A stretch of 39,530 nucleotides of DNA, taken from NCBI GenBank assembly GCA_937911525.1, contig CALDQK010000539.1, positions 1 to 39,530 on the forward strand, in the 5' to 3' direction. Below the pieces are notes generated by a model. It was not told the DNA's origin and ran no database searches. It saw only the letters and a list, made by a program, of their open reading frames with translations. Both the position numbers and the translations under genes were made by a program. Each line of letters begins with the position of its first letter. Position 1 is the stretch's first letter. Shown here one piece after another: positions 1 to 29,533 of the stretch. This DNA is from an uncultured bacterium. Its GTDB lineage: Bacteria > Planctomycetota > J058.

Positions 1-51
1 CGAGCAGTCCACGGTGAGCACGCGGGGGGCGAGGAGCAGGACGGGATCCAT
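1..51 (-). CDS. 5' end of a gene running off the left edge
   Basis: A minus-strand ATG at 49-51 is preceded by a strong GGAGGAGG ribosome-binding site (read on the minus strand, about 4 nt upstream), and the frame stays open to the window edge. Only 17 codons are visible, beginning MDPVLLLAPRVLTV. That is too little to assign a family. It would be divergent from the lipoprotein gene starting at 262, so the 210 nt between them probably hold promoters for both. No clear -35/-10 pair is visible there. Confidence 0.5.
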   Translation of the reverse strand, partial: MDPVLLLAPRVLTVDCS

Positions 52-261: not shown

Positions 262-882
262 ATGCACTCGCAGACCCCTGTTCGCTCGAGCCTGATCGCC
301 TTGATCCTCTTGGCCTCGACCTCGGGTTGCGCCTTCCTCGAGGGCCTCCAGCGCGACCCTTCCGTCGCCGTGCGAGCGCAGGGCAAGCGCGGGCGAGGCG
401 CGATCCTCGGCCCCAATCGCGTCATGACCGTCCAGCACGTGGTCGGCTCGGCGCGGCGGGTCCGCGTCGGCGCGGGCCTCGAGTGGACCGAGGCCCGGGT
501 CGTGCGCCGCTTCCCCTGCGCGCCTGAGGCCCTGGTCGAGCTGGAGCTCGAGCAGAGCACCCTCGGCTTCAGCGGCTTCGCCGCGGCCCGCTGCGCCCAG
601 CTCGGTCAGGGCGGCCCGGCCTGGATTCACACCCCGCGCGGGCGAATGCCCTGGGGCTCGGCCGAGCTGCGCCGCGGCGACTCGGGCTCGCCGGTGTTCG
701 ACGCGCAGGGCGGCCTGGTCGGCCTCCTCCACGGCCGCGAGCTGTGGAGCGGGCGGCCGATCGCCGTCCAGCTCAGCTCGACGACCTTCGGCGCCGGCCC
801 TCTCGCGCGACGCGCAAACGCCAGCGACGAGCTGCTGGCGCTGGCCCGCGCGCGCGCGCCGCGCCCCCTCCGGCTGCGCTAG
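262..882 (+). CDS. lipoprotein with trypsin-like serine protease fold (H59, E89, S141)
   Basis: The 206-residue product begins with a lipoprotein signal (hydrophobic stretch ending LASTSGC, lipobox Cys at about residue 25), so it is probably envelope-anchored. The ATG at 262 follows a strong AGGAGGTG site; the open frame extends further upstream but without a ribosome-binding site. Residues 50-160 look like a chymotrypsin-fold core: GAILGPNRVMTVQHVV holds the catalytic-type His59 and RRGDSGSPVF holds the nucleophile-type Ser141 with its oxyanion loop. Where the triad Asp is expected (before the ALVELEL strand) the residue is Glu89. Two shorter relatives lie at 2161 and 2644. The gene is tail-to-tail with the YceK-like gene with no gap. 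Protease activity is possible but unproven given the Asp-to-Glu change. Confidence 0.75.
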   Translation: MHSQTPVRSSLIALILLASTSGCAFLEGLQRDPSVAVRAQGKRGRGAILGPNRVMTVQHVVGSARRVRVGAGLEWTEARVVRRFPCAPEALVELELEQSTLGFSGFAAARCAQLGQGGPAWIHTPRGRMPWGSAELRRGDSGSPVFDAQGGLVGLLHGRELWSGRPIAVQLSSTTFGAGPLARRANASDELLALARARAPRPLRLR

Positions 883-1215
883 TCACCCGTCGGTTGGCGC
901 CTCTTCTTCCTCCCCCTCGCAGCGGACCGGCCCACAGCCGGAGCAGCGCCAGCTCGGGTGCAGCGCGAGCATCACTGGCAGCAGCGCCGTGTCGACGCCG
1001 AGGGTCAGCGGCAGCTCGAAGAGCAGGATCACCCCAATGTTGCTGCTGCCCTCGCCGAGCCGCCGGATCCCCAGGTCGTGAGCGACCATGGCGACGCTGA
1101 CCCGCGTCGCCCCGTAGGGCCTGCGGGAGCAGGTCAGCCCGAGCGCGGTGGCGCAGCCCCCCTGCGCCAGCGCGGCCGCGGCGAGGAGCGTCAGGACGAG
1201 TCGGCGAGATCGCAT
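883..1215 (-). CDS. YceK/YidQ-like small lipoprotein
   Basis: A 110-residue product with a short signal peptide ending AALAQGGC, giving a lipobox Cys at about residue 21. Downstream it has the layout of the YceK/YidQ (DUF1375) lipoprotein family: a YGATRVSV segment followed by a conserved hydrophobic block with ELPLTLGVDTALLP. Family members are small lipoproteins of unknown biochemical function. The C-terminal tail has an acidic EGEEEE run. The stop codon directly abuts the stop of the convergent protease-like gene at 882. The family assignment rests on pattern recognition of the P-L-x(4)-D-x-x-L-L-P block. Confidence 0.65.
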   Translation of the reverse strand: MRSRRLVLTLLAAAALAQGGCATALGLTCSRRPYGATRVSVAMVAHDLGIRRLGEGSSNIGVILLFELPLTLGVDTALLPVMLALHPSWRCSGCGPVRCEGEEEEAPTDG

Positions 1216-1695
1216 GGCCTCAGGGTGAAGGCTCGCTGCCCTGCGAGCGGCTCAATCCCACGAATCGACTCGATAACCACGGAGGTCAGCTCTCGTCGCG
1301 CCGGACTCGTCCCGCCCAGGCGCGCTCACCAGGTGCCCTACTCCCCTCGTCGCGGGAAGTGCACTCGGGATCGGATCGCTCACGTCCGAACAAGCCGCAG
1401 GGGACAGGCGCTCTCACTCGCCCACCTCGAGCGAATAAGGGGAGTAGAGCGCCCGAATGATCAAGGCGCTCCCGCCGACCCTCCCCCTGCGCTCTGCCCC
1501 CGTTTAGCGGAACCCAAAGTGGGGGGCTGGGGGGCTCGCCCCCCAGAAATACAGTCGCCTGGCGCCTCTGGGGGGAGGAGGCGCCAGGCGACCAGCGGAG
1601 AGGGGGTGGAAAGAAGGGTGGAAGGAGCGGGGGCGCGAAGTCACGAACGCGAGTGCACTCGCGGACCTACGCGCCCCCCAGGTTGGAGTGGCGGG
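1216..1695. other. 480-nt gap without a convincing gene
   Basis: Between the start of the YceK-like gene and the end of the small membrane protein gene no open frame has both a ribosome-binding site and recognisable protein character. Its only obvious structures are the two adjacent strong hairpins at 1527-1592. The rest should hold the promoter of the minus-strand gene starting at 1215; no clear -35/-10 pair is seen. Confidence 0.5.
1527..1592 (-). terminator. double hairpin, probable terminator of the 1696-1902 gene
   Basis: Two perfect inverted repeats lie back to back. One has arms at 1554-1568 and 1578-1592 (15 bp, 9-nt loop). The other spans 1527-1546 (8-9 bp with a tiny loop). Read on the minus strand, the 15-bp stem is followed by TGTATTTCT, a short U-rich tail, about 100 nt after the stop at 1696. 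A terminator for that gene is the simplest reading. No T-tract follows on the plus strand. Confidence 0.5.
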
Positions 1696-1902
1696 CTAGG
1701 CGATCAGGCCGAGGAACCACCACTGGAAGGCGAGGCCGGCGACGAGGAGGCCGGCGGCGACGAGGCGGGCCCGAGCGACGCGGGCGGCGGGGGAGAGGTC
1801 TCGCGGCGCCTGGTCGAGGAACTGGCGCAGGAGCTCGTCTTCGCTGAAGGAGCGGCGCGGCCGGGTGACTTGGCGGCGTGAGAATGCAGCGGTGTTCGAC
1901 AT
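1696..1902 (-). CDS. small single-pass membrane protein, 68 aa
   Basis: The ATG at 1902 is preceded by AGGAGA at good spacing on the minus strand, and most codons end in G or C like neighbouring genes. Residues 1-45 are charged (arginine-rich, then FSEDELLRQFLDQAP). Residues 46-68 form one hydrophobic segment with a WWF aromatic cluster that reaches the C terminus, typical of a tail-anchored or small inner-membrane protein. No family is recognised. It is divergent from the lipoprotein gene at 2161. A larger open frame extends upstream but lacks protein character, so this start is preferred. Confidence 0.6.
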   Translation of the reverse strand: MSNTAAFSRRQVTRPRRSFSEDELLRQFLDQAPRDLSPAARVARARLVAAGLLVAGLAFQWWFLGLIA

Positions 1903-2092
1903 GTCTGTCTCTCCTGGTGCGAAGTCCCAGTGCAAGAGGGCGGCCACAGCGCAACTCGCGCTGCTGCGTTCGAGGCGGGGCGCTAGCACCCGCGTCGGCC
2001 ACCCCTGGCGCGGTGTCTCCGCCCCTCTTGGCTTCGCCCCCGCCCCTCCAGAGGCGCGCGCGCCCCTGGGGCAGGACCCGCGCGAGCCCCGC

Positions 2093-2104
2093 TCTGCATG
2101 CAGA
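2093..2104. promoter_or_regulatory. 12-bp palindrome, possible operator
   Basis: TCTGCATGCAGA is a perfect 12-bp palindrome about 57 nt upstream of the lipoprotein gene at 2161, in the divergent interval 1903-2160. It could bind a dimeric regulator. No repeat of it was noticed elsewhere, so this is weak evidence. Confidence 0.2.
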
Positions 2105-2160
2105 TCAAGGAGTTGAGCTCGGGCCCGCGCTGTGCCTGAGCGCTGGTCATGGAGGTCACT

Positions 2161-2634
2161 ATGACGAGCGCACGCACGACGAGGACGAGCCGGCAGCTCC
2201 CCGCGCTCTTGTTGGCCGTGGCGGGCCTGCTCCCTTGCGGCTGCGCCAGCTCGGACGCGACCCTGGCGGCCCGCTCGGCCGACTACGGTCACTGCGTCGC
2301 GCTGGGGCCAGGCCGAGTGGCGACCGTCGAGCACGTGACCAGCCGCGCAGGGCGCTTGGAGGTGCGCGACGGCCGCACCTGGCGCAGCGGGCAGACGGTC
2401 AGCAGCGTGCCCTTGCCGACCCTCCCCTGGCGCGACGCGGTGGTCGAGGTCGAGGTGCCGGGCTACTCGCCGCGCCCCGCCGAGTGGCAGCGCCTGGGCG
2501 CCGACGACGCCGGCCGCGGGGTCTACATCCGCGAGGGCGGGCGCTGGGTCTGCGTCGGGATCTACCTGGGCGACTCGCAGCGGAGCGCCGCGATCGGCGT
2601 GTTCGCTCCCCCTCACCCGAGCTGGACTCCCTAG
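2161..2634 (+). CDS. trypsin-fold-like lipoprotein, nucleophile Ser replaced (H58, D92, A117)
   Basis: A 157-residue lipoprotein (signal ending AGLLPCGC). The ATG at 2161 is chosen because GGAGGT sits 5-6 nt upstream; the in-frame ATG at 2149 has none. It aligns with the 262-882 product: GPGRVATVEHVT keeps the His (58), LPWRDAVVEVEV has Asp92 at the triad position, but the GDSG motif has become ADDAGRGVYI, with Ala117 where Ser should be. It should therefore be catalytically dead as a serine protease. It is about 50 residues shorter than the first paralogue because of a compact C-terminal half. The next paralogue begins 9 nt after its stop, so the two are probably co-transcribed. Confidence 0.7.
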   Translation: MTSARTTRTSRQLPALLLAVAGLLPCGCASSDATLAARSADYGHCVALGPGRVATVEHVTSRAGRLEVRDGRTWRSGQTVSSVPLPTLPWRDAVVEVEVPGYSPRPAEWQRLGADDAGRGVYIREGGRWVCVGIYLGDSQRSAAIGVFAPPHPSWTP

Positions 2635-2643
2635 GAGGGCGCC

Positions 2644-3120
2644 ATGAGCCCCAACCCCAGCCTGACTTCGCTCGCCGCCTCGCTCAGCCTCCTGGTCTCG
2701 CTGACCGGCTGCGGCGCGGTCGCTCCCTTGCCCAGCGACCCGGCGGACCTCAGCTTCGACCGCGGCCACGGCGTGCCCCTCGGCGGCGAGCGCGTAGCGA
2801 CCACGGCCCGCGTCGCCGCGGGTGAGCCGCACGCAGGCGAGCCGCTCGTGCGCCACGAGCTGCCCGCCATGCGCGGACGCGAGGCCATCGTCGAGCTGCG
2901 CGTCCCCGGCCTGAGCGCGGCCTGCGTCCCCCTGCGCCGGCTAGGACCCGGCGACTCCGGGCGCGGGGTCTACGTGAAGATCGAGGGGCGCTGGCGCTGC
3001 ATCGGCCTCTATCTGGGCCGGCGCTGGCCAAAGGGGCGCGAGGACCAGGCGGTGAACGTGTTCGCCCACCCGCTCCCCGACTGGCTCGGGGCTCGCGAGC
3101 GAGACTTCCTCCAGCCCTGA
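2644..3120 (+). CDS. trypsin-fold-like lipoprotein, catalytic His replaced (R56, E80, S105)
   Basis: A 158-residue lipoprotein (signal ending LVSLTGC) with AGGAGG before its ATG, 9 nt after the preceding paralogue. Its alignment to that paralogue is clear: GHGVPLGGERVATTARV against GHCVALGPGRVATVEHV, and GPGDSGRGVYV against GADDAGRGVYI. The Ser of GDSG (105) is retained, but the His position is Arg56 and the Asp position is Glu80, so serine-protease catalysis is not expected. Both short paralogues share GRW-C-GLYLG/GIYLG and a C-terminal VFA-P-P-W block. The role is unknown: a binding or scaffold protein of the envelope is an inference. Confidence 0.7.
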   Translation: MSPNPSLTSLAASLSLLVSLTGCGAVAPLPSDPADLSFDRGHGVPLGGERVATTARVAAGEPHAGEPLVRHELPAMRGREAIVELRVPGLSAACVPLRRLGPGDSGRGVYVKIEGRWRCIGLYLGRRWPKGREDQAVNVFAHPLPDWLGARERDFLQP

Positions 3121-3180
3121 GCGTCAGCTGCCTCGGGCGAGCTTGCCCTGCCTTCGCCCAGGCCCGATCCTCGGCGATCC

Positions 3181-4020
3181 GTGAAGCTCGCTCACCTCTC
3201 CGACCATCACTACGACGGCACCCCCCAGCGGCGGGACCTCTTCCTGCGCGCGCTCGAGGGGGCACGAGCCCGCGGCGCCGACCACCTCCTGCTCGCAGGT
3301 GACCTCGTCGACTACGCCGACCGCGGCCACTTGAGCGAGGTCGCCGAGCTCCTGCGCGAGACCGGCTGGTGGGACCCCGCGCGCGCGACGGTCTTGCCAG
3401 GCAACCACGACCTCTACCGTCACTCGGCGCCCCACCTCGTCCGCAGCCTGCTGGGCGGACTGCCCAGCCTCACGCGCACCCGCGCGACCTTCGACGAGCT
3501 CTTCGGCGAGCTGATGGGGACCCGCGTCGCCGAGCCCACGCTGCCTGCGCTCAAGCCCCTCGACTCCGAGTGGACGCTGCTGCTCCTGGACACCGTGATC
3601 CGCACCCACCGCTTCGACCTCCTCGGCTCCTGGCGCGGCGACCTCGACGCCACCCTGAGCGAGCCCACCCTCGAGGCGATCCACGCCGCCGCGCCCAGGC
3701 GCCTGGTCGTCGCGGGTCACCACTTCCCCCTCCCCCAGTCCCGCGCCGCGACCGCGCTCCTGCGCGGCACGGCCTTCGTCGACCCGGGCTTCGCCGAGCT
3801 CGAGGGCTTGCTGGAGCGCTTGAGCCCGCGCCCAGCGCTCTACCTCTGCGGGCACATTCACGCCTGGCCAGCCGGCCAGCCGCCGGCCTTCGACACCGAG
3901 CGCGTGAGCGAGGTCCCCGTCTACTGCCAGGGCCGGACCGGCGGCTGGGTGGACATCGAGCCGAGCTGGACCCTGCACGTCCTCGGCGAGCGGGTCGAGT
4001 CGGAGCTGGTTCCGCTCTAG
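3181..4020 (+). CDS. calcineurin-like metallophosphoesterase
   Basis: The 279-residue product carries the metallophosphoesterase motif series in order: D8-x-H10 near the N terminus (LSDHHYD), GDLVD at about 40, GNHDL at about 79, GHH at about 180 and GHIHAW at about 224, which supply the two-metal ligands. No signal peptide or membrane segment is seen, so it is cytoplasmic. It starts with GTG at 3181, 60 nt after the lipoprotein gene, without a strong ribosome-binding site; the start is chosen because the conserved KLAHLSD strand begins there. The substrate cannot be told from sequence (phosphodiester or phosphomonoester of a nucleotide or lipid). Confidence 0.85.
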   Translation: MKLAHLSDHHYDGTPQRRDLFLRALEGARARGADHLLLAGDLVDYADRGHLSEVAELLRETGWWDPARATVLPGNHDLYRHSAPHLVRSLLGGLPSLTRTRATFDELFGELMGTRVAEPTLPALKPLDSEWTLLLLDTVIRTHRFDLLGSWRGDLDATLSEPTLEAIHAAAPRRLVVAGHHFPLPQSRAATALLRGTAFVDPGFAELEGLLERLSPRPALYLCGHIHAWPAGQPPAFDTERVSEVPVYCQGRTGGWVDIEPSWTLHVLGERVESELVPL

Positions 4021-17975: not shown

Positions 17976-18044
17976 CGAGATAACAGGCCCCCGGGAACCT
18001 CCCTCCCCCTGTTCGGTATCGCCCTACGGGAGCCCGGAAGGTGC

Positions 18045-20120
18045 GTGTCTCCGGGGCTAGAATCCGCTGTGGTCGTGTCCTCGCTCGTCAGCACTCACCG
18101 TGAAGGGGAAGACGTCGTCCTGCTCGTGGACGACGACCCGAGCAACCTCGCGCTCCTGGAGCGGGCGCTGCGGGGGCGGGGGTATCGGCTGGTCAGCTGC
18201 CAGGCCGGCGCCGAGGCGCTGGAGCTGGCGCGGCGCGAGCGGCCGACGCTGGTCCTGCTCGACGTCGTGATGCCGGCCATGGACGGCTACGAGGTCTGCA
18301 GCCGCCTCAAGGCGGACGAGCAGACCCGCGACTGCGCGGTGGTCTTCCTCTCCGCCCTCGACGAGGCCGACCACAAGGTGCGCGGGCTCGAGCTCGGGGC
18401 GGTGGACTACCTGGCCAAGCCCTTCGATCGCGAGGAGGTGATCACGCGGGTCCAGACCCACGTCACCGTCCAGCGGCTCCAGCGCCAGCTGCAGCGGCGG
18501 ACCCGCGAGCTGGAGCGTGAGCTGCGCGTGGCCCAGCAGCTCGTGGCGGACCAGCGCGATCGGCACGAGGGGCCGCTGCTGGGCGGGAGCGCCCCTGCTC
18601 GCGCGCTGCGGGAGAGCGTGGCCGCGGCGGCGGAGAGCGAGGAGCCCGTGCTGCTGCTCAGCCCCGCGGGCGCGGGCGAGGAGGCGGCGGCGCGCGCGAT
18701 CCACCACCAGTCGCCGCGCGGCGAGCGCCCCTTCCTGCGCGTCGACTGCCTCAGCGTCGAGGCGGCCGACACGCCGCTCTTCGCGAGCGAAGGGGCGAGC
18801 AAGTGGGGGCTCGCGCGGGGGGGGACGATCTACCTGGACCGCGTCGAGGTCCTCGCCGAGTCGCTCCAGCAGGAGCTCGCGCGCCGCCTCGTCGAGGCGC
18901 CGGCCAGCGACGACCCGCGCGTGATCGCGACCGTCCTGGGGGACCGGGGAGAGGGGGCCGCGGGCCGCCTGGAGGCGATCGCGTGGCGCACGATCCGGGT
19001 GCCCTCCCTCGCGGAGCGGCGCGAGGACATCCCCGAGCTCGCCCAGCACTTCCTCAGCCGGGCGGCCCAGCGCCAGGGGCGGCAGATCGAGGGGATCTCG
19101 CCCGAGTCCCTCCGGCGCCTCGTGAGCTGCCCGTGGCGCGGCAACGTCGAGGAGCTGCGCAGCGTGCTGGACTGCGCGCTGATCACCTCCAGGGGCGCCC
19201 TGGTCGAGGTCAACGAGGCGCTGCTCGAGACGGGGCGTCGGGTCGGCAGCTACGAGCTGGTCGAGCCGCTCGGCGCCGGGAGACATGTGTGGGAGGCGCG
19301 ACACCGGCTGCTGATCCGCCCCGCGGCCATCAAGTTCGTGCGCTCGGCGCGCCTCGCGGACCCCAGCACCCGGCTCGAGACCGTGCGCCAGTTCGAAGAG
19401 GAGGCCCGCGCCACCGCCTCGCTCCGCTCGCCCAACACCGTGCAGCTCTACGACTTCGGCGTCACCGAGGAGGGCGCCCTCTACTACGCCATGGAGCTGC
19501 TGCGGGGCATGGACCTCGAAGCCCTCGTGGCTCGCCACGGCGCGGTCCCGCCGGCGCGCGCCGTGGGCTTCGTCCAGCAAGCCTGCGGCTCGCTCGCCGA
19601 AGCCCACGAGCGGGGCCTGATCCACCGCGACGTCCGGCCCGCCAACCTCTTCGTGTGCTGCGTGGGGCCGACCCCCGACGTGGTCAAGGTGCTCGACTTC
19701 GGGCTGACGCGCGAGCTGGCGCAGTCCGCCTGCGGCAGCGCGACCTGCGCCAAGGGAGCCCTCGTCTGCTCGCCCGCCTTTGCTGCCCCCGAGGCGCTCC
19801 AGGGTGCGCCCTGTCCCGAGAGCGACGTCTACTCGCTCGGCTGCACGCTCTACTGGCTGCTCAGCGGCGTGACGGTCTTCTCCGGGGACCCCGCGGCGCA
19901 CGTGAGCGGACACCTCGGGGACGCGCCGGGACCGCCCTCGCGCCTGGCGGCTGGCCCGCTCCCCGCCGGGCTCGACGAGCTGGTGCTGGACTGCCTGAGC
20001 AAAGACCCGCTCGCCCGGCCCAGCGCGCGCGAGGTGCGTCGACGCCTGCGCGCCCTCAGCTTCGCGCAGCCGTGGACCGAGGACGCCGCCCGGGCCTGGT
20101 GGCGGGAGCGCGCCGAGTGA
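18045..20120 (+). CDS. REC / degenerate NtrC-type AAA+ / Ser-Thr (pseudo)kinase fusion
   Basis: A 691-residue cytoplasmic protein. A receiver domain (24-140) has VLLVDDD, phospho-acceptor Asp73 in LVLLDVVMP and the YLAKPF Lys. A coiled linker follows, then an NtrC-like ATPase region (about 180-390) lacking key residues: Walker A reads SPAGAGEE (no Lys), the GAFTGA loop is absent, Walker B reads GTIYLDRV, and the arginine-finger motif is missing. [12 protein letters not shown] and CPWRGNVEELR still show ancestry. A Ser/Thr kinase domain (about 400-670) has the VAIK-type Lys and LDFG, but its glycine loop is shortened (GAGRHVWEA) and the catalytic loop is HRDVRPAN with Arg for Lys. GTG at 18045 is assumed; a later GTG at 18075 is possible. 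It overlaps the next gene by GTGA. Confidence 0.8.
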   Translation: MSPGLESAVVVSSLVSTHREGEDVVLLVDDDPSNLALLERALRGRGYRLVSCQAGAEALELARRERPTLVLLDVVMPAMDGYEVCSRLKADEQTRDCAVVFLSALDEADHKVRGLELGAVDYLAKPFDREEVITRVQTHVTVQRLQRQLQRRTRELERELRVAQQLVADQRDRHEGPLLGGSAPARALRESVAAAAESEEPVLLLSPAGAGEEAAARAIHHQSPRGERPFLRVDCLSVEAADTPLFASEGASKWGLARGGTIYLDRVEVLAESLQQELARRLVEAPASDDPRVIATVLGDRGEGAAGRLEAIAWRTIRVPSLAERREDIPELAQHFLSRAAQRQGRQIEGISPESLRRLVSCPWRGNVEELRSVLDCALITSRGALVEVNEALLETGRRVGSYELVEPLGAGRHVWEARHRLLIRPAAIKFVRSARLADPSTRLETVRQFEEEARATASLRSPNTVQLYDFGVTEEGALYYAMELLRGMDLEALVARHGAVPPARAVGFVQQACGSLAEAHERGLIHRDVRPANLFVCCVGPTPDVVKVLDFGLTRELAQSACGSATCAKGALVCSPAFAAPEALQGAPCPESDVYSLGCTLYWLLSGVTVFSGDPAAHVSGHLGDAPGPPSRLAAGPLPAGLDELVLDCLSKDPLARPSAREVRRRLRALSFAQPWTEDAARAWWRERAE

Positions 20121-22246
20121 CGCGCGCCGCCGCCGCGCTCCAGGAGGTCTTGCTCGTCGTGGACGACGACGAGAGCAGCCGCGCCCTCCTCCGGCGCGTG
20201 CTCGAGCGCAGCGGGCACCGCGTCGTCGTCGCGAGCAGCGGGGAAGAGGCCCTCGAGCGCGCCCAGCGCGAGCGGCCGATGCTGATCCTCCTCGACGTCG
20301 TGATGCCCGGCATGGACGGCTACGAGGTGTGCCGACGCCTGAGGGAGCAGGAGGACACGCGCGAGTGCGCGGTCGTGTTCCTCTCCGCCCTCGACGAGCC
20401 GACCGACAAGGTGACCGGCCTCAAGCTGGGCGCCGTCGACTACCTGACCAAGCCCCTGCACCGGGCGGAGGCCCTGGCGCGCGTCGACGCCCACCTCACG
20501 ATCCAGCGGCTCAAGCGCGAGCTGGACCGGCGCAACGCCGAGCTGGAGCACGAGCTGTGGGTCGCGCGCGAGCTGGTGTGGAGCGCGCAGGCCCAGCAGG
20601 CGGGGCCCCTGCTGGGGGAGAGCGCGCCGGCGCGGCGCCTGCGCGAGCGGATCGCGGCCGCGGCGGGGGACGAGCGGCCGGTCCTGATCCTCAGCCCCGG
20701 CGGGGCCGGCGAGGAGGCCGTGGCCCGGGCGATTCACCACCAGTCCGAGCGCGGCAGCCGCCCCTTCCTCTTCGTCGACTGCCTGGGCCTGCGCGAGGTC
20801 GACGGCGAGAGCCTGTTCGGCCGCGGCTCGCGCTGGGAGCTCGCCAGCGAGGGGGCGCTCTACCTCGACCACGTCGAGAGCCTCCCCCTGGTGCTCGCCT
20901 ACGAGCTCGCCGAGTGGCTCCGCTCCTCCAGCCCCAAGCCGCGCGTGATCGCGCGCGCCCGCCAGGAAGGCTTCGCCGCCTGGGAGGCGCTCGGAACCGT
21001 CGCGTGGCTGCGCGTCGAGGTCCCCAGCCTCGCCGAGCGCCGCGAGGACATTCCGACGCTCGCCGCCCACTACCTGACCCAGAAGGCCCACCGCCTGGGC
21101 CGGGAGACGCGCGGGCTCTCGGAGCGCTCCTGGGAGCTGCTCTCGAACTACGCCTGGCCGGGCAACGTCGCCGAGCTGCGCAGCGTCCTCGACTGCGCGC
21201 TGATGACGAGCGGCGACGAGCGGGTGGAGGTCGACGCCTCGCTGCTCGAGTCGGGGAAGCGGGTGGGCAGCTACCAGCTGATCCGCCGGATCGGCGCCGG
21301 GGGCATGGGTGAGGTGTGGCTGGCCCGCCACCGGCTCCTGGTGCAGCCGGCCGCCGTGAAGCTGACCCGCACCAACGAGCTGCTCGACCCGAGCCAGCGC
21401 GCCGACTCGCTGCTCCGCCTGGAGCGCGAGGCCCGCGTCACGGCTGGCCTCGAGTCGCTCAACACGGTGCGCCTCTACGACTTCGGGGTGACCGACGAGG
21501 GCTCCTTCTATTACGTGATGGAGTTCCTCGAGGGCCTCGACCTGAGCACCCTGGTGGACGAATTCGGCCCCCTCCCGCCGGCGCGGGCGACCCAGCTGAT
21601 CGCGCAGGCCTGCGACTCGCTCGCCGAGGCGCACGAGCAGGGCCTCGTCCACCGCGACATCAAGCCCTCCAACCTCTTCCTGACCCGCCTGGGCGAAGAG
21701 CGAGACGTGCTCAAGGTGCTCGACTTCGGCCTCGTGCACGAGCTCTTCGGCGCCGATCAGCGCGACGCCAAGCGCAAGCTGGTCGTGGGGACGCCCGCCT
21801 TCTATTCCCCGGAGGCCTGCCAGGGCACCCCGGACCCGCGGGGCGACATCTACTCGCTCGGCTGCACGCTCTACTACCTGCTCACCGGCGAGTACGTGTT
21901 CGAGGTGGACAACGTGGACGCCATGACGGAGGCCCACCTGGGCGCGCCGGCCCAGCCGCCCTCCTGGCGCGCGCCGGACGTCACCGAGGAGCTCGATCAG
22001 CTGGTGCTGGACTGCCTGGAGAAGGACCCCGCGCGACGCCCCGAGCCGGCAGAGCTGAAGCGGCGGCTGGAGCAGGTCTCCTGCGAGGAGCCCTGGACGG
22101 CGGCAGACAGCGCGGCCTGGTGGAAGGCCTGGGCCGAGGGGGGCGGGGAGCGCGCCTCGCGCGATCTGCTCGACGCCTTCGAGGCCTCCTCCAGTCAGCC
22201 TCTCGTGAGTCACGACGAGCCGACCAGGCTGATCGAGCCGTGGTGA
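20117..22246 (+). CDS. REC / degenerate NtrC-type AAA+ / Ser-Thr kinase fusion, active-looking paralogue
   Basis: A 709-residue tandem paralogue of the preceding protein with the same order: REC (10-125, [11 protein letters not shown], Asp in LILLDVVMP), a helical linker, a dead NtrC-like ATPase (SPGGAGEEA in place of Walker A, LYLDHV in place of Walker B, no GAFTGA) and a Ser/Thr kinase. Here the kinase is canonical: glycine loop [15 protein letters not shown] Lys, catalytic loop [12 protein letters not shown], and activation-segment [10 protein letters not shown]. It ends in an acidic serine-rich tail. The likely role is a response regulator whose output is Ser/Thr phosphorylation rather than sigma-54 activation. 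GTG start inside GTGA, and it overlaps the hybrid kinase gene in the same way. Confidence 0.85.
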
Positions 22247-23805
22247 CGCCTGAGCGCCCGGTCAAGCTGCTCGTCGTCGACGACGAGCCGGACGTCGAGC
22301 TGCTGGTTCGCCAGCGCTTTCGCCACCAGATCCGCCGGGGCGAGTTCGGCTTCGTGTTCGCCCGCAACGGCAAGGAGGCCCTCGCGCTCCTCGAAGAGCA
22401 CCCAGACGTCGAGGTCGTGCTGACCGACCTCAACATGCCCGAGATGGACGGGTTGACCCTGCTCTCCCACCTGCAGGAGCTCTCGATCCCCGGGCTGCAG
22501 CCGGTGGTCGTGACCGCCTACGGCGACATCAAGAACATCCGCACCGCCATGAACCGCGGCGCCGTGGACTTCGTCACCAAGCCCATCGACTTCGCGGATC
22601 TCGAGCTCACGATCCGCAAGGCGATCGGCTACGCCCGGGAGGCCAAGACGGCCCGGCGGCTGCGCGAGGAGAAGCTCCAGGCCGAGGCGGCCAGCGCGGC
22701 CAAGAGCCTCTTCGTGGCCTCGATCAGCCACGAGATCCGCAACCCCATGAACTCGATCGTGGGCATGTGCGAGCTGCTGGCCGAGACCGAGCTGGACCCC
22801 GAGCAGGCGCGCTACACCCAGCAGCTCCGCGTCGGCTGCGAGGCGCTGCTCGGGCTCCTCGACGAGGTCCTCGACCTGTCGCGGATCGAGGCCGGCGCGC
22901 TCGAGCTGGAGCGCTCACCCTTCGACCTGCGCCAGGTGGTCTCGCAGGCGCTCGGGATCATGGAGGTCCTGGCCGGCAAGAAGGGCCTCAGCCTGCGCTC
23001 GAGCGTGGCCTCCGCGGCCCCCGCCCGGATCGTGGGTGACGCGGGCCGGCTGCGCCAGGTCCTGCTCAACCTGCTGGGCAACGCCTGCAAGTTCACCGAC
23101 TCGGGCGAGGTCGCGCTCGAGGTCACGCTGCCCGCGCCCAGCACGCTCCAGTTCGCGGTGTGCGACACGGGGATCGGCATCCCGCGCGAGCGCCAGGACG
23201 CGATCTTCGGCGCCTACGCCCAGGCGGCCGAGCGACGCTTCGGGGGGACCGGGCTGGGGCTCGCCATTTGCCAGCGCGTGGTCGAGGCCTGGGGCGGGCG
23301 GATCTGGGTCGAGAGCGAGGTCGGCCAGGGCAGCGCGTTCCGCTTCACGCTCCCCGTCGAGGTGGCGCAGAGCGCGGCCCCCAGCGCGCCGGTCGAGCGC
23401 GGGCCCGTCGCGGGGCGGCGAATCCTGCTCGCCGACGACTCCGAGGACAACCGAATGCTCGTCGCCCGCTACCTGGCCCGCACCCCCCACCAGCTCGACC
23501 AGACCAGCAACGGGAGGGAGGCCCTGGACCGGGTCAAGAGCGGCGACTACGACCTGGTCCTGCTCGACATGGACATGCCCGTGATGGACGGCTTCACCGC
23601 GGCGGCCGAGCTGCGCGCCTGGGAGCGCCGCGAGCGCCCAGAGGCGCCCCCGCTGCCCGTCGTGGCCTTGACCGCCTACGCGCTCGAGGACCACCGCCGG
23701 CGCTGCTTCGAGGCCGGCTGCGACGGGCACCTCACCAAGCCGATCACCAAGGCCGCCCTGCTCGAGACGATCGAGCGCTTCGCGCGACCTCAGCCCTCGT
23801 CGTAG
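22243..23805 (+). CDS. hybrid histidine kinase, REC-HisKA-HATPase-REC
   Basis: A 520-residue cytoplasmic protein without membrane segments. An N-terminal receiver (1-125; LLVVDDEPD, Asp at about 61 in [11 protein letters not shown]) and a helical linker precede HisKA with [10 protein letters not shown] (His at about 162) and an HATPase domain ([12 protein letters not shown]-box at about 276, [16 protein letters not shown]). A C-terminal receiver follows ([10 protein letters not shown], Asp at about 442 in [11 protein letters not shown]). An input receiver and no sensor domain mean it is driven by another kinase. It starts with GTG overlapping the upstream stop. Its 3' end overlaps the convergent Hpt gene by 16 nt, and that Hpt is the natural acceptor for the last receiver. 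Confidence 0.92.
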
Positions 23806-24104
23806 ACCGGCTCGACGCGTGCCAGGTAGTCCTCCAGCTCGCCGACCAGCTGCTCGATCGCGCCGCCGTCCTGGTGGCGCGCGGCGGTCGAGAGCGCGGC
23901 CCCCAGCTCGCCCAGGCGGGGGAAGCCGTAGGCCGCCCCGGTGCCCTTCATCGAGTGGCCGATGCGGCGGATCTCCTCCCACGTCGCCGCGGCGAGGGCT
24001 GCTCGCAGCTGCGCCAGGTCTTCGTGACGGAGCTCGAGGTAGCGCGGGACCAGATCCGCGATCTCGGGGTCGACGCGCACGGAGATCTTTCCCTTACCCT
24101 CCAC
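23790..24104 (-). CDS. histidine phosphotransfer (Hpt) protein
   Basis: A 104-residue all-helical protein with the Hpt signature IGHSMKGTG; His50 is the expected phospho-acceptor, followed by [18 protein letters not shown] at 24104 is chosen because homology begins soon after; no strong ribosome-binding site is visible. It would shuttle phosphoryl groups between receivers. It is encoded on the opposite strand, convergent with the hybrid kinase (16-nt overlap of 3' ends) and divergent from the large kinase at 24170, an arrangement that could give antisense effects on the hybrid kinase message. Confidence 0.85.
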
Positions 24105-24169
24105 GGGTCCGACGCTAGCGACGATCGGACCCCGCCACAAGCCGCAAGCGACTCGCGGCAGGACCACGC

Positions 24170-27100
24170 ATGCTCGAGCTCTCTCGCTACCAGCTCTCGG
24201 AGCAGCTCCACGAGAGCGCCAACTCCCGCGTCTACCGCGCCAAGCGGCTCGCCGACGGGCAGCCCGTCGTGGTCAAGGTCCTCAGCGAGGAGTTCCCCTC
24301 GCCGGAGCGGATCGCGCGCTTCGCCCGCGAGTTCGAGGTGGCCCACGGCCTGAACCCCTCGTCCGACCCCGCCCAGGCGCTCCAGACCGTCGTCGCCAGC
24401 TACGCGCTCGAGCGCGACCGCGAGCGCTGGGTGATGGAGGTCGAGGACTTCGGCGCCGAGTCCCTCGCGCGCAGCGGACTGGCCGGTCGGATCGGGCTGG
24501 AGGACTTCCTCGAGATCGCGGCGCAGATCGCGCGCGCCCTGGCCGGGCTCCACGCCCGCCACGTGATCCACAAGGACGTCAACCCCAGCAACGTGGTGCT
24601 CAACCCCGAGACCTACCAGGTCAAGCTGATCGACTTCGGGATCTCGACCCAGCTCTCGCGCGAGCGCACCGCCATGCGCAGCCCGGGCGTGCTCGAGGGG
24701 ACCCTGACCTACATCTCCCCCGAGCAGACCGGCCGCACCAACCGCGCGGTCGATTACCGGACGGACTTCTACAGCCTCGGCGTCACGCTCTACGAGCTGC
24801 TCACGGGAGAGGTCCCCTTCACGAGCGAGGACCCGCTCCAGCTCGTGCACGAGCACATCGCCCGGCTCCCCCGCCCGCCCCACGAGCTGCGCCCTGGGGT
24901 TCCGCCCCTGCTGTCCCGGATCGTGACGCGCCTGCTCGAGAAGAACGCCGAGGATCGCTATCAGTCCGGGTTGGGCCTGGCCGCCGACCTGGAGCGCTGC
25001 CTCGAGGAGCTGCGCGCCCGCGGCGAGGTGGGGGACTTCGCCCTCGGCCAGCGGGACGTCTCCGATCGCTTCCAGCTGCCCGGGCACCTCTACGGACGCG
25101 ATCGTGAGATCGCGAGCCTGCTGGCGGCCTTCGAGCGGGTCGGCCAGGGCGCGACCGAGCTGCTGCTGATCGGCGGCTACTCGGGGATCGGCAAGTCGGC
25201 CCTGGTGCGCGAGGTCTATCGACCGATCACCGAGCGCCGCGGCTACTTCATCCTGGGCAAGTTCGATCAGCTCCAGCGCGAGGTGCCCTACGCGGTGCTG
25301 ATCCAGGCCTTCCGCTCGCTCGCCCGCCAGCTCCTGACCGAGGGGGAGGCCAGCGTGGCGAGCTGGCGCGCGCGCCTCCTCGCGGCGCTGGGGCCCAACG
25401 GGCGCGTGATCACCGACGTGATCCCCGAGTTCGAGCTCCTGCTCGGGCCCCAGCCGGAGGTGCCTCAGCTGGGGCCGGCGGAGGCCGAGAACCGCTTCAA
25501 CCTCGTGTTCCAGAGCTTCGTCGACGTGTTCGCCCAGCCCGAGCACCCCCTCGTGATCTTCCTGGACGACCTGCAGTGGGCCGACCCGGCCTCCTTGAGC
25601 GCGGTCGAGAGCCTGGCGCGCCGCCCGGGCGGGCACCTGCTCCTGATCGGCGCCTACCGCGACAACGAGGTCGACGAGGCCCACCCCCTGACCCTGACCC
25701 TGAGCCGGGTCCGCGCCGCCCGCCCCGAGCGCCTGAGCGAGATCGTGCTCGAGCCCCTGGCCGAGGAGGACGTCCGCGAGCTGGTCGCCGACACGGTCGG
25801 GCGCCCGGCCGCCGAGGCGGAGCCCCTGGCCCACCTCGCCTGGGAGCGGACCGGCGGCAACCCCTTCTTCTTGGGCGGCTTCCTCGAGTCGCTCCACGCC
25901 GAGGGCCTGCTGGCCTTCGCGCGCGGCGCCTGGCGCTGGGACCTCGACCGGATCCGCGCGGAGGCGATCACCGAGAACGTGGTCGACCTGCTCGCGGGGC
26001 GGATCCAGCGGCTGTCCCCGGACACGCAGTCCCTGCTCCAGCTCGCGGCCTGCCTCGGCAATCGCTTCGACCTCGCCACGCTGGCCATGATCGCTGAGCG
26101 GCCCGCCGTGAGCGTCGCGCACGACCTGTGGGAGGGCGTGGTCAGCGGCCTCGTGCTGCCGCTCAGCGACGCCTACAAGCTGATGGCGCTCGAGGTCGAA
26201 GGGCTGGCCGCCGCGGTCAGCGCCGAGTACCGCTTCGCCCACGACCGGGTCCAGCAGGCGGTCTACTCGCTGATCCCCGCCGAGGAGCGCCCCGGGCTGC
26301 ACCTGCGCGTCGGCCGGCTCTTGCTCGAGAGCACCCCCCCCGCCCTGCGCGAGGAGCGGATCTTCGCGATCGTCAACCAGCTCGACGAGGGCGCGGCCCT
26401 GATCAGCGACCCCGACGAGCGCGGGCGCCTGGCTCGCCTCAACCTGCGGGCCGCCGAGAAGGCCAAGGCCTCGGCCGCCTTCCCCGCGGCCTTCGCCTAC
26501 CTCCGCCACGGGCTGAGCCTCCTCGACGAGGACGCCTGGGACACGGACTACGAGCTGGCGCTCGAGCTGCACGCCTCGGCGGCCGAGGCGGCGCACCTCT
26601 GCCGGGAGGACGCCGAGCGGGAGCGCCACTGCGAGCTCGTGCTGGAGCACGCCCGCGCGCGGCTCGACCGGATCCGGATCTGCGAGCTGCGCGTGTTCGC
26701 CTACAACCAGCGCAACGAGTACTCGCGCGCGATCGAGACCGCCCTCGCGGGGTTGCGCCTGCTCGGCACCGAGCTGCGCGAGGACCTCAGCCCCGCCGAG
26801 GTCGAGGCGGGCTTCGGCGAGGCGATCCGCACGCTCCTCGCGATCGACCCCGCCGAGGTGCCGAACCTGCCGCGGATGCAGGACCCCGAGCAGCTGGCCA
26901 CGGTCCGGCTGCTCGTGGCCATGACCTCGACCGTGTTCAACTCGCGGCCGCAGCTCCTGGCGGACATGGCGATCACGATCGTGCGCCTGGCCCACGAGCA
27001 CGGCCTGTGCGCGGAGCTGGCCTACGGCTTCGGCCTGTTCGGGATCGTGACCTGCGCCAACCCCGCCACGATTCCCGCGGGCTACCACGCCGGCAAGCTG

Positions 27101-29533
27101 GCCCAGCGGATCCAGGACACCTTCGGCGCGCAGGAGCTCAAGGCCAAGACCTACTGCATGGTCAACGCCTTCATTCGGCACTGGAGCGAGCCGATGCTGG
27201 CCTGCATCGAGCCCTTTCAGGAGGGCCTGCGGAGCGGGCTCGAGCAGGGCGACCTCGAATACGCGAGCTACTGCGCCAAGGAGTCCTGCGCGTTCTGGCT
27301 CTTCGGCGGGGTCGGCCTGGAGCGGACCCTCGAGCTGCAGACCGAGGCGATCGGCGTGCTGGAGCGGATCGCCATCGTCTACACGCTGCACAACGCCAAC
27401 GTGTGGCGGCAGCTGACGCTCAACCTGCGCGGTGAGGGCGAGTCCCGCACGCGCCTGGTCGGCGAGGCCTTCGACGAGGACGCGCTGACCGAGTTCCTCG
27501 TCGAGTCCAAGCACGCCACCAGCCTGTTCGCGCTCTACGTCTCCAAGGCGATCCTCTGCTACCTCTTCGGAGAGCCGGCCGAGGCCCTCCGCAACGTCGC
27601 CCTGGCCGAGGAGTGGGCCGCCGGCGGGGCGGGGCTGATGCACTCGGGCCCTTGGCACTTCTACGTGGCCTTGATCCACCTCGCCCTCTGCGAGCCCGAG
27701 GCCCCCGAGGAGTGGGGCGAGCACCTCGAGGTCGTCGAGCGCGAGCTCGAGGCGCTGGGGGCGCTGGCCGAGCGGGCGCCGAGCAACTACGCCCACAAGC
27801 GAGAGCTGGTGGCGGCCGAGCGCGCGCGGCTGGCGGGGGAAGAGGTCGCGGCGATCGAGCTCTACGAGGCCGCTATCGACCTGGCCCGGGAGCACGGGTT
27901 CATTCACCAAGAGGCGCTGGCCTTCGAGCTCGCGTCGCGCTTCCACGGCGGGCGCGGGCGCCTGCGCCTGGCGCTGGTCTACCTGCAGGACGCCCACTAT
28001 GCGTATCGCCAGTGGGGCGCGCTCGAGAAGGTGGCCGACCTCGAGGAGCGCTACCCCCAGCTCGCCGAGGGGGCGCGCTCGACCGGCTCGCGGCCGGGGA
28101 CCAGCACGAGCAAGAGCACGCGCGGCACGGGCTCCAGCGCTGGCGTCGCGCTGGACTTCGACTCGGTGGCCAAGGCGAGCCAGGCCATCTCGGGCGAGGT
28201 GGTCCGGGCCGACCTCCTGCGCCGCATGATGGAGATCGTGGTCGAGAACGCCGCCGCCGCGCGCGGCGCCCTGGTGCTCGCGACGGACGAGGGCCCGCGG
28301 CTCGAGGTGCTCGCCGAGGGCGAGACGCGGGTCCTGCCGCCCACGCCCTTGAGCGAGTCCCTGGAGCTCTCGGCGGGGATCGTGGAGTACGTCCTGCGCA
28401 CGGGCGAGGAGGTCGTGCTCGGCGACGCCGCCAGCCGCGGCCCCTTCGTGCGGGACGCCTACGTCAAGCGCACCACGCCCCGCTCGATCCTCTGCGCGCC
28501 GATCGCCGGGGGAGGGCGCACGCGCGGCGCGATCTACCTGGAGAACAACGTGGCGGCGGACGCGTTCACGGCCGAGCGCGTGCGCGTGATCCAGCTGCTC
28601 TCCTCGCAGGCCGCGATCTCGCTCGAGAACGCGAAGCTCTTCGCCCAGCTCGAGCGGGCCAACGAGACGCTCGAGGCCAAGGTGCGCGCGCGGACCTACG
28701 AGCTGGAGGAGAAGAACGACGAGCTCCAGGCGACGCTCGCGCAGGTGCGCGAGATGCAGGAGCAGATCGTGACCCAGCAGAAGCTGGCCTCGCTGAGCGC
28801 GCTGACGGCCGGGATCGCGCACGAGATCCGCAACCCGCTCAACTTCATCGTGAACTTCGCCGACCTCTCGCGCGAGCTCGCCGACGAGCTGCGCGCGGCG
28901 CTGGACGCCGCTCAGCTCGAGGAGGAGGCCTCCCAGCTGCTGGGGGACCTGCGGGTGAACGTGGAGCGGATCCACGAGCACGGGCGGCGCGCCGACCAGA
29001 TCATTCAGATGATGGCCAAGCACAGCCAGATCTACCCCTACACCCGCGAGGCGGGCAACCTCTCCGTCCTGGTCGAGGACTGCCTGCGCACCTCCCAGAG
29101 CGAGGCCGGTCCGCTGCGGATCGCGCGGGACTACGAGCCGATCGCGCCGGTCGAGGGCGTCGTCGGGCAGGCCCTCAGCGGGGCGCTGAGCAACCTGCTC
29201 GACAACGCGCGCTGGGCCATGCGCGAGCGCGAGGGCGAGCCCGGCTACGAGCCCGCGCTCGAGGTCTCGATCCGCGACGTGGACGAGGGCGTCGAGCTGC
29301 GGCTGCGCGACAACGGGGTCGGGATCGAGGCCGGGGTGCGCGAGCGCGTGCTCGAGCCCTTCTTCACGACCAAGCCCCCCGGCGAGGGCGCGGGCCTGGG
29401 CCTCTCCCTCGCGCACGAGATCGTGACCAAGCTCCACCAGGGCGCGCTCGAGCTCACGAGCGAGCCGGGCCGCTTCACGGAGGTCCGGCTGGTGATCCCC
29501 CGCCGCGCCGCCCCGCCGCTCGGGGGCCGGTGA
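24170..29533 (+). CDS. trifunctional Ser/Thr kinase - AAA ATPase - GAF - histidine kinase
   Basis: The 1787-residue protein has a known multidomain order. A Ser/Thr kinase (1-285) has a VVVKV Lys, catalytic loop HKDVNPSN and LIDFGIS. An AAA_16-type ATPase (about 303-560) has Walker [10 protein letters not shown] near 333 and Walker [13 protein letters not shown] near 460. A long alpha-helical TPR-like region (600-1270) follows, then a GAF domain (about 1340-1485), a coiled coil, HisKA with [11 protein letters not shown] near 1550 and HATPase (NLLDNARW near 1674, [17 protein letters not shown]). There is no C-terminal receiver. Such HstK-like proteins are frequent in myxobacteria and cyanobacteria. 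In the kinase loop the usual Lys is Asn, as in other members. It probably feeds phosphate to the neighbouring receivers and Hpt. Confidence 0.92.

Follow-up and report, generated by a model that had tools for sequence, protein, structure and literature searches.

Three paralogous genes related to trypsin-like proteases were found at the beginning of the window, which is the whole stretch of 39,530 nucleotides analysed here, and none of the three encoded proteins has a full catalytic triad. In the reading that we prefer, to which we give a probability of about 60%, copy 1 would be a MarP/HtrA-like lipoprotein without the catalytic Asp, perhaps active in sensing through a Ser-His dyad, and copies 2 and 3 would be non-catalytic binding proteins, perhaps forming a heterodimer; a composite active site would not be formed. 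Copy 1 is predicted to be a small envelope lipoprotein with a trypsin fold, belonging to a clade in which the Asp was replaced by Pro or Ala while His, Ser and the GDSGSP motif stayed fixed. It may still bind peptides and perhaps cleaves them slowly, or cleaves only once during self-processing. Copies 2 and 3 would be derived from the same lipoprotein ancestor as an adjacent and lineage-specific pair, which lost part of the second barrel as well as further triad residues and was kept by selection at the protein level.

The window represents the entire contig C539 of a 10.2-Mb assembly with 1342 contigs. Copy 1 (P0001; 206 amino acid residues; positions 262–882, forward strand) contains a signal peptide, a Cys23 conserved in its family and a Trypsin_2 domain. 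On the same strand, positions 436–438 encode its His59 (within TVQHVV), positions 526–531 its Glu89 and Ala90, and positions 676–693 its GDSGSP motif, of which positions 682–684 encode the nucleophile Ser141. Copy 2 (P0003; 157 residues; positions 2161–2634, forward strand) possesses His58, Asp92, Ala93 and, in place of the Ser, Ala117, while copy 3 (P0002; 158 residues; positions 2644–3120, forward strand) possesses Arg56 in place of the His, Glu80, Ala81 and Ser105 within GDSG. The genes and the residues H59/E89/S141, H58/D92/A117 and R56/E80/S105 were thus all located where the original prediction had put them. The reading frames of all three copies are intact, and their GC3 values (0.93, 0.94 and 0.92 for copies 1, 2 and 3, respectively) are like those of neighbouring genes, such as the metallophosphoesterase and sulfatase genes that come after the trio. 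As to the proposal that all three proteins are lipoproteins, the putative lipoboxes judged by eye were good in copy 3 (LTGC), weak but tolerable in copy 1 (TSGC) and poor in copy 2 (PCGC). The Cys at position +1 is conserved across the family of copy 1.

A strong Shine-Dalgarno sequence (gaggaggtgcgccATG) is found 5' of copy 1. Because copies 2 and 3 are only 9 nucleotides apart and copy 3 is preceded by a Shine-Dalgarno-like AGGAGG, they are probably co-transcribed. Copy 1 is separated from this pair by 1.3 kb with open reading frames on the opposite strand, so the trio is not one operon. The first of these frames (positions 883–1215, reverse strand) encodes a small predicted lipoprotein without a Pfam match, which by eye we take to be like the YceK/YidQ-like lipoproteins. 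The second (approximately positions 1696–1902, reverse strand) may encode a membrane protein of 68 residues and corresponds to the C-terminal part of a longer reverse-strand frame at positions 1696–2856. The same interval also contains an interspersed intergenic repeat of ~140 bp (positions 1407–1546) that recurs, whole or in part, in contigs C937, C119 and C366 with identities of 85–91%, and directly after it a perfect 15-bp inverted repeat with a 9-nucleotide loop (positions 1554–1592; GTCGCCTGGCGCCTC/GAGGCGCCAGGCGAC).

Copies 2 and 3 were 38% identical to each other (E 1e-22). By BLASTP, copy 1 matched copy 2 with an E value of 1e-7 and copy 3 with an E value of 4e-5, and both alignments covered the signal peptide and the first barrel; the homology among the three copies (E 1e-22 to 4e-5) is beyond chance. 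When the profile of the copy-1 family was compared with that of copies 2 and 3 by hhalign, both barrels were covered with a probability of 94.8% and an E value of 5e-8. In this alignment, S141 corresponds to A117 and E89 to D92, and the stretch from the acid strand to the Ser loop contains gaps that add up to ~31 residues in copies 2 and 3. These comparisons indicate that the three copies are true paralogues and that copies 2 and 3 have been shortened.

The predicted trypsin fold of copy 1 holds in both profile searches and structure modelling. Copy 1 passed the Pfam Trypsin_2 model (PF13365) with 36.1 bits against a gathering threshold of 27.6 (E 1e-8), although it lacks the Asp. In its AlphaFold model, which was built with seven relatives, most of both barrels had pLDDT values of 84–93 (pTM 0.69), and an N-terminal helix corresponded to the signal peptide. 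The best Foldseek matches of this model were MarP structures (E 4e-8), followed by exfoliative toxins, DegS, MamO (5hm9) and small viral proteases; the TM-scores, mostly 0.45–0.56, refer to the whole chain including the signal peptide and the C-terminal tail. MarP (Rv3671c) is the best relative of solved structure by sequence profile and by fold. However, copy 1 is not a member of the MarP family, as it scored 26.2 bits against a cutoff of 250 for NCBIfam NF033740. A membrane-associated trypsin fold is common to both, but copy 1 is lipoprotein-like, has no membrane domain and lacks the Asp in the register of the triad. Unlike copy 1, neither copy 2 nor copy 3 matched Trypsin_2 at E<1 in a Pfam profile search. 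The model of copy 2 comprised the first barrel only, with pLDDT values of ~66–80 there, 38–49 in the C-terminal part and 57 on average, and Foldseek found no significant structural match for it. Given how poor this model is past the first barrel, the case for a trypsin ancestry, which the original prediction had assumed for the whole trio, rests on sequence homology for copies 2 and 3.

The position of the catalytic Asp was assessed with the relatives of copy 1. In a gap-free family alignment, E89, D92 and E80 fall on an invariant Glu, and the residue that follows (A90, A93 and A81, respectively) aligns with the Asp of family members with the sequence PEDLVVLAL; the motif of the 12-member alignment is PE[D/P/A/E]LVVLEV. 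The Asp of the PEDLVVLAL members aligns with the Asp of DVAVLKI in the DegP-like MucD and with that of EDLAVL in Jep, the sites at which HtrA and V8-like enzymes are known to have theirs. The equivalence of E89, D92 and E80 was agreed upon by an alignment of truncated relatives, BLASTP and hhalign. An initial MAFFT alignment of the three copies with relatives, in which the acid strand was two residues off from the other three alignments, was set aside. All this places the catalytic Asp one residue past the acid proposed originally, at what would be A90 in copy 1, A93 in copy 2 and A81 in copy 3. In the corrected register, the triads read H-A-S in copy 1, which keeps H59 and S141, H-A-A in copy 2 and R-A-S in copy 3. 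The original prediction had found each triad position to be canonical in at least one copy. With Ala in the Asp register of all three, no copy provides an Asp at the canonical place, and the three are thus not complementary; the pattern of complementary losses had arisen from a misregistration of one residue.

Copy 1 does not stand alone but is part of a family of Trypsin_2 lipoproteins in the Planctomycetota with at least 12 members. The 12 comprise copy 1 and 11 further full-length members, of which one is in the same genome and the rest are in five other genomes, so that the set comes from six genomes belonging to a single GTDB family; three copy-1 relatives are in the other genome from the genus of the window. 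A more distant Trypsin_2 member outside this set was found elsewhere in the phylum (L019). The columns that are invariant in all 12 include Cys23, H59, P88, E89, G102, F103 and GDSGSP. In contrast, the residue after E89 is Asp in four members, Glu in one, Pro in six and Ala in one, which is copy 1. In a maximum-likelihood tree, the members with Asp or Glu were split from the seven with Pro or Ala with weak support (59/89), consistent with a single loss of the Asp in the Pro/Ala clade. The summed branch lengths of this group amount to ~5 substitutions per site, and its His and GDSGSP are unchanged throughout. Thus, selection still guards the nucleophile and the base after the loss of the Asp. 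Either the dyad would suffice in this clade, or Glu89 would help, or the site would bind peptides. The suggestion that the trio represents pseudoproteases recruited for binding is therefore not simply applicable to copy 1, with its fixed His and GDSGSP, while it fits copies 2 and 3.

Copy 1 might instead be a fully active protease in which Glu89 has taken the role of the Asp in a Ser-His-Glu triad. Glu89 is as invariant (12/12) as the His and GDSGSP, adjoins the canonical Asp position and lies just before the strand of residues 91–96 in the model of copy 1. However, the four members that still have the Asp keep this Glu just as strictly, so that it has a role independent of the loss of the Asp. 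For the same reason, a structural role of Glu89 is favoured over an acid role, and we consider a Ser-His-Glu triad in copy 1 to be unlikely, at a chance of little more than one in five.

The second barrel of copies 2 and 3 is incomplete, with ~31 residues gone ahead of the Ser loop, and they therefore cannot be ordinary proteases. Their codons speak for constraint on the proteins. Over 144 aligned codons, copies 2 and 3 differ at 69, 61 and 68 of the first, second and third positions, respectively, compared with 99, 106 and 78 when the codons were paired after shuffling, and 29 of the 60 identical residues are encoded by different codons. This indicates that both genes have been held under protein-level constraint rather than drifting as dead genes, which is evidence of past selection, not of present function. 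Judged from their sequences, copies 2 and 3 are most likely non-catalytic envelope binding proteins.

The pair is confined to this genome so far. The original prediction had proposed a search of related genomes for a complementary trio. Copies 2 and 3 had no credible homologue in 148 near relatives or in 392 genomes across the phylum. They were also absent from the other genome of the same genus, a search of a genome collection with copy 3 was empty, and a scan of viral contigs with both copies found none. Matches in distant genomes with E values of 5e-4 to 1e-2 were short and often crossed stop codons or lay in long unrelated frames; the only one inspected (L090) lay on the strand opposite to other plausible genes, among them one that looked ArsR-like by eye, and these matches were dismissed as noise. 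The metallophosphoesterase has an orthologue with 58% identity in the same genus; copies 2 and 3 are missing beside it, but so is the sulfatase, so that this locus is not a clean empty site.

The restriction of copies 2 and 3 to one genome, together with the loss of key residues and of part of the domain, would also be expected if a protease had been duplicated and all three genes were its functionless remains, soon to be lost. Such decay is improbable, however, given the intact frames, the GC3 values of 0.92–0.94, the Shine-Dalgarno sequences, the strong conservation of first and second codon positions between copies 2 and 3 and the fixed catalytic residues in the family of copy 1. A composite active site to which different subunits contribute the His, Asp and Ser had been offered as a speculation in the original prediction. 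The presence of every triad residue in some copy in the original register and the adjacency of copies 2 and 3 speak for it, but it can be given almost no credence, as the register backed by relatives has Ala at the Asp position of all three and so no Asp donor, the trio occurs in none of the other genomes searched, and the second barrel of copies 2 and 3 is incomplete.

In the preferred reading, copy 1 would take part in an envelope sensing step. This role is proposed because its relatives elsewhere adjoin histidine-kinase and receiver genes. At six of the eight loci with copy-1 relatives (L092, L094, L095, L098, L100 and L101), a gene for a histidine kinase, a receiver or a receiver-Ser/Thr kinase was found within 800 bp. 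The copy-1 relative adjoins a hybrid histidine kinase at L092, L095, L100 and L101, and the second copy at L095 adjoins a receiver protein. At L098, a receiver-Ser/Thr kinase gene is divergent from the relative, while at L094 such a gene is directly downstream of it and a receiver-HD protein is encoded on the other side. Neighbours were detected by BLAST with queries from these same loci, and each neighbour was also matched by queries taken at other loci. For comparison, such a gene lay within this distance for 4.0% of comparable placements over 228 kb of a single related genome. Against this background, the binomial estimate for six of eight is ~1e-7, or ~2e-6 with paralogous loci counted once, for a single background genome and for neighbours whose type differs among the loci. 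The linkage suggests an envelope input to signalling.

Copy 1 itself has no confirmed signalling neighbour in the window, as only 261 bp of the contig precede it. The only hint of one is a frame divergent from copy 1 and cut by the contig end (positions 1–51, reverse strand), which starts with MDPVLLLAPRVLTVDCS; it resembles the beginning of a receiver domain in which the second acidic residue has been exchanged and is too short to judge. Some 15 kb from the trio, positions 17976–29530 of the window hold a cluster of Ser/Thr kinase, histidine kinase, receiver and sigma-54-activator-like genes, which is homologous to genes beside copy-1 relatives elsewhere. At another locus (L093, positions 2369–3839), the gene for an unclassified receiver-like protein without a Pfam match is directly followed by a copy-1 relative, and fliD/fliS-like genes were recognized by eye nearby. 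A broader reading, which we put forward only tentatively and regard as having about one chance in four, is that this trypsin-fold lipoprotein family, with one Asp-less clade of fixed His and Ser, would act as a sensor or processing step for the adjacent kinase/receiver pathways, with copies 2 and 3 as derived binding partners.

Trypsin-fold pseudoproteases are well known. MamO of magnetotactic bacteria has an HtrA-like fold with an altered triad and plays a non-catalytic role after duplication (PMC4794232), and is the nearest known bacterial trypsin-fold protease recruited to such a role. MamO keeps the His and the Asp, has Thr in place of the Ser, contains a transporter domain and binds metal, whereas the trio consists of small predicted lipoproteins in which it is the Asp that has gone. 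The nearest known set of protease paralogues that mostly lack catalytic residues and act in signalling is CspB/CspA/CspC of Clostridioides difficile, of which one has an intact triad and two are regulatory pseudoproteases (PMC6636752). Different from the trio, the Csp proteins are spore proteins with a subtilisin fold. A search of the literature on bacterial trypsin-like pseudoprotease lipoproteins found nothing on the family of copy 1. The fold is known, and what is new is a family of trypsin-fold lipoproteins with an Asp-less branch, together with a private pair of shortened pseudoproteases. A bacterial branch that lost the Asp alone and kept the His and Ser fixed over a long divergence would offer nature's own test of whether a biological task can be done with a Ser-His dyad. 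Moreover, if the recurrent linkage to genes of two-component systems and Ser/Thr kinases is functional, it would point to an envelope input for Planctomycetota kinases.
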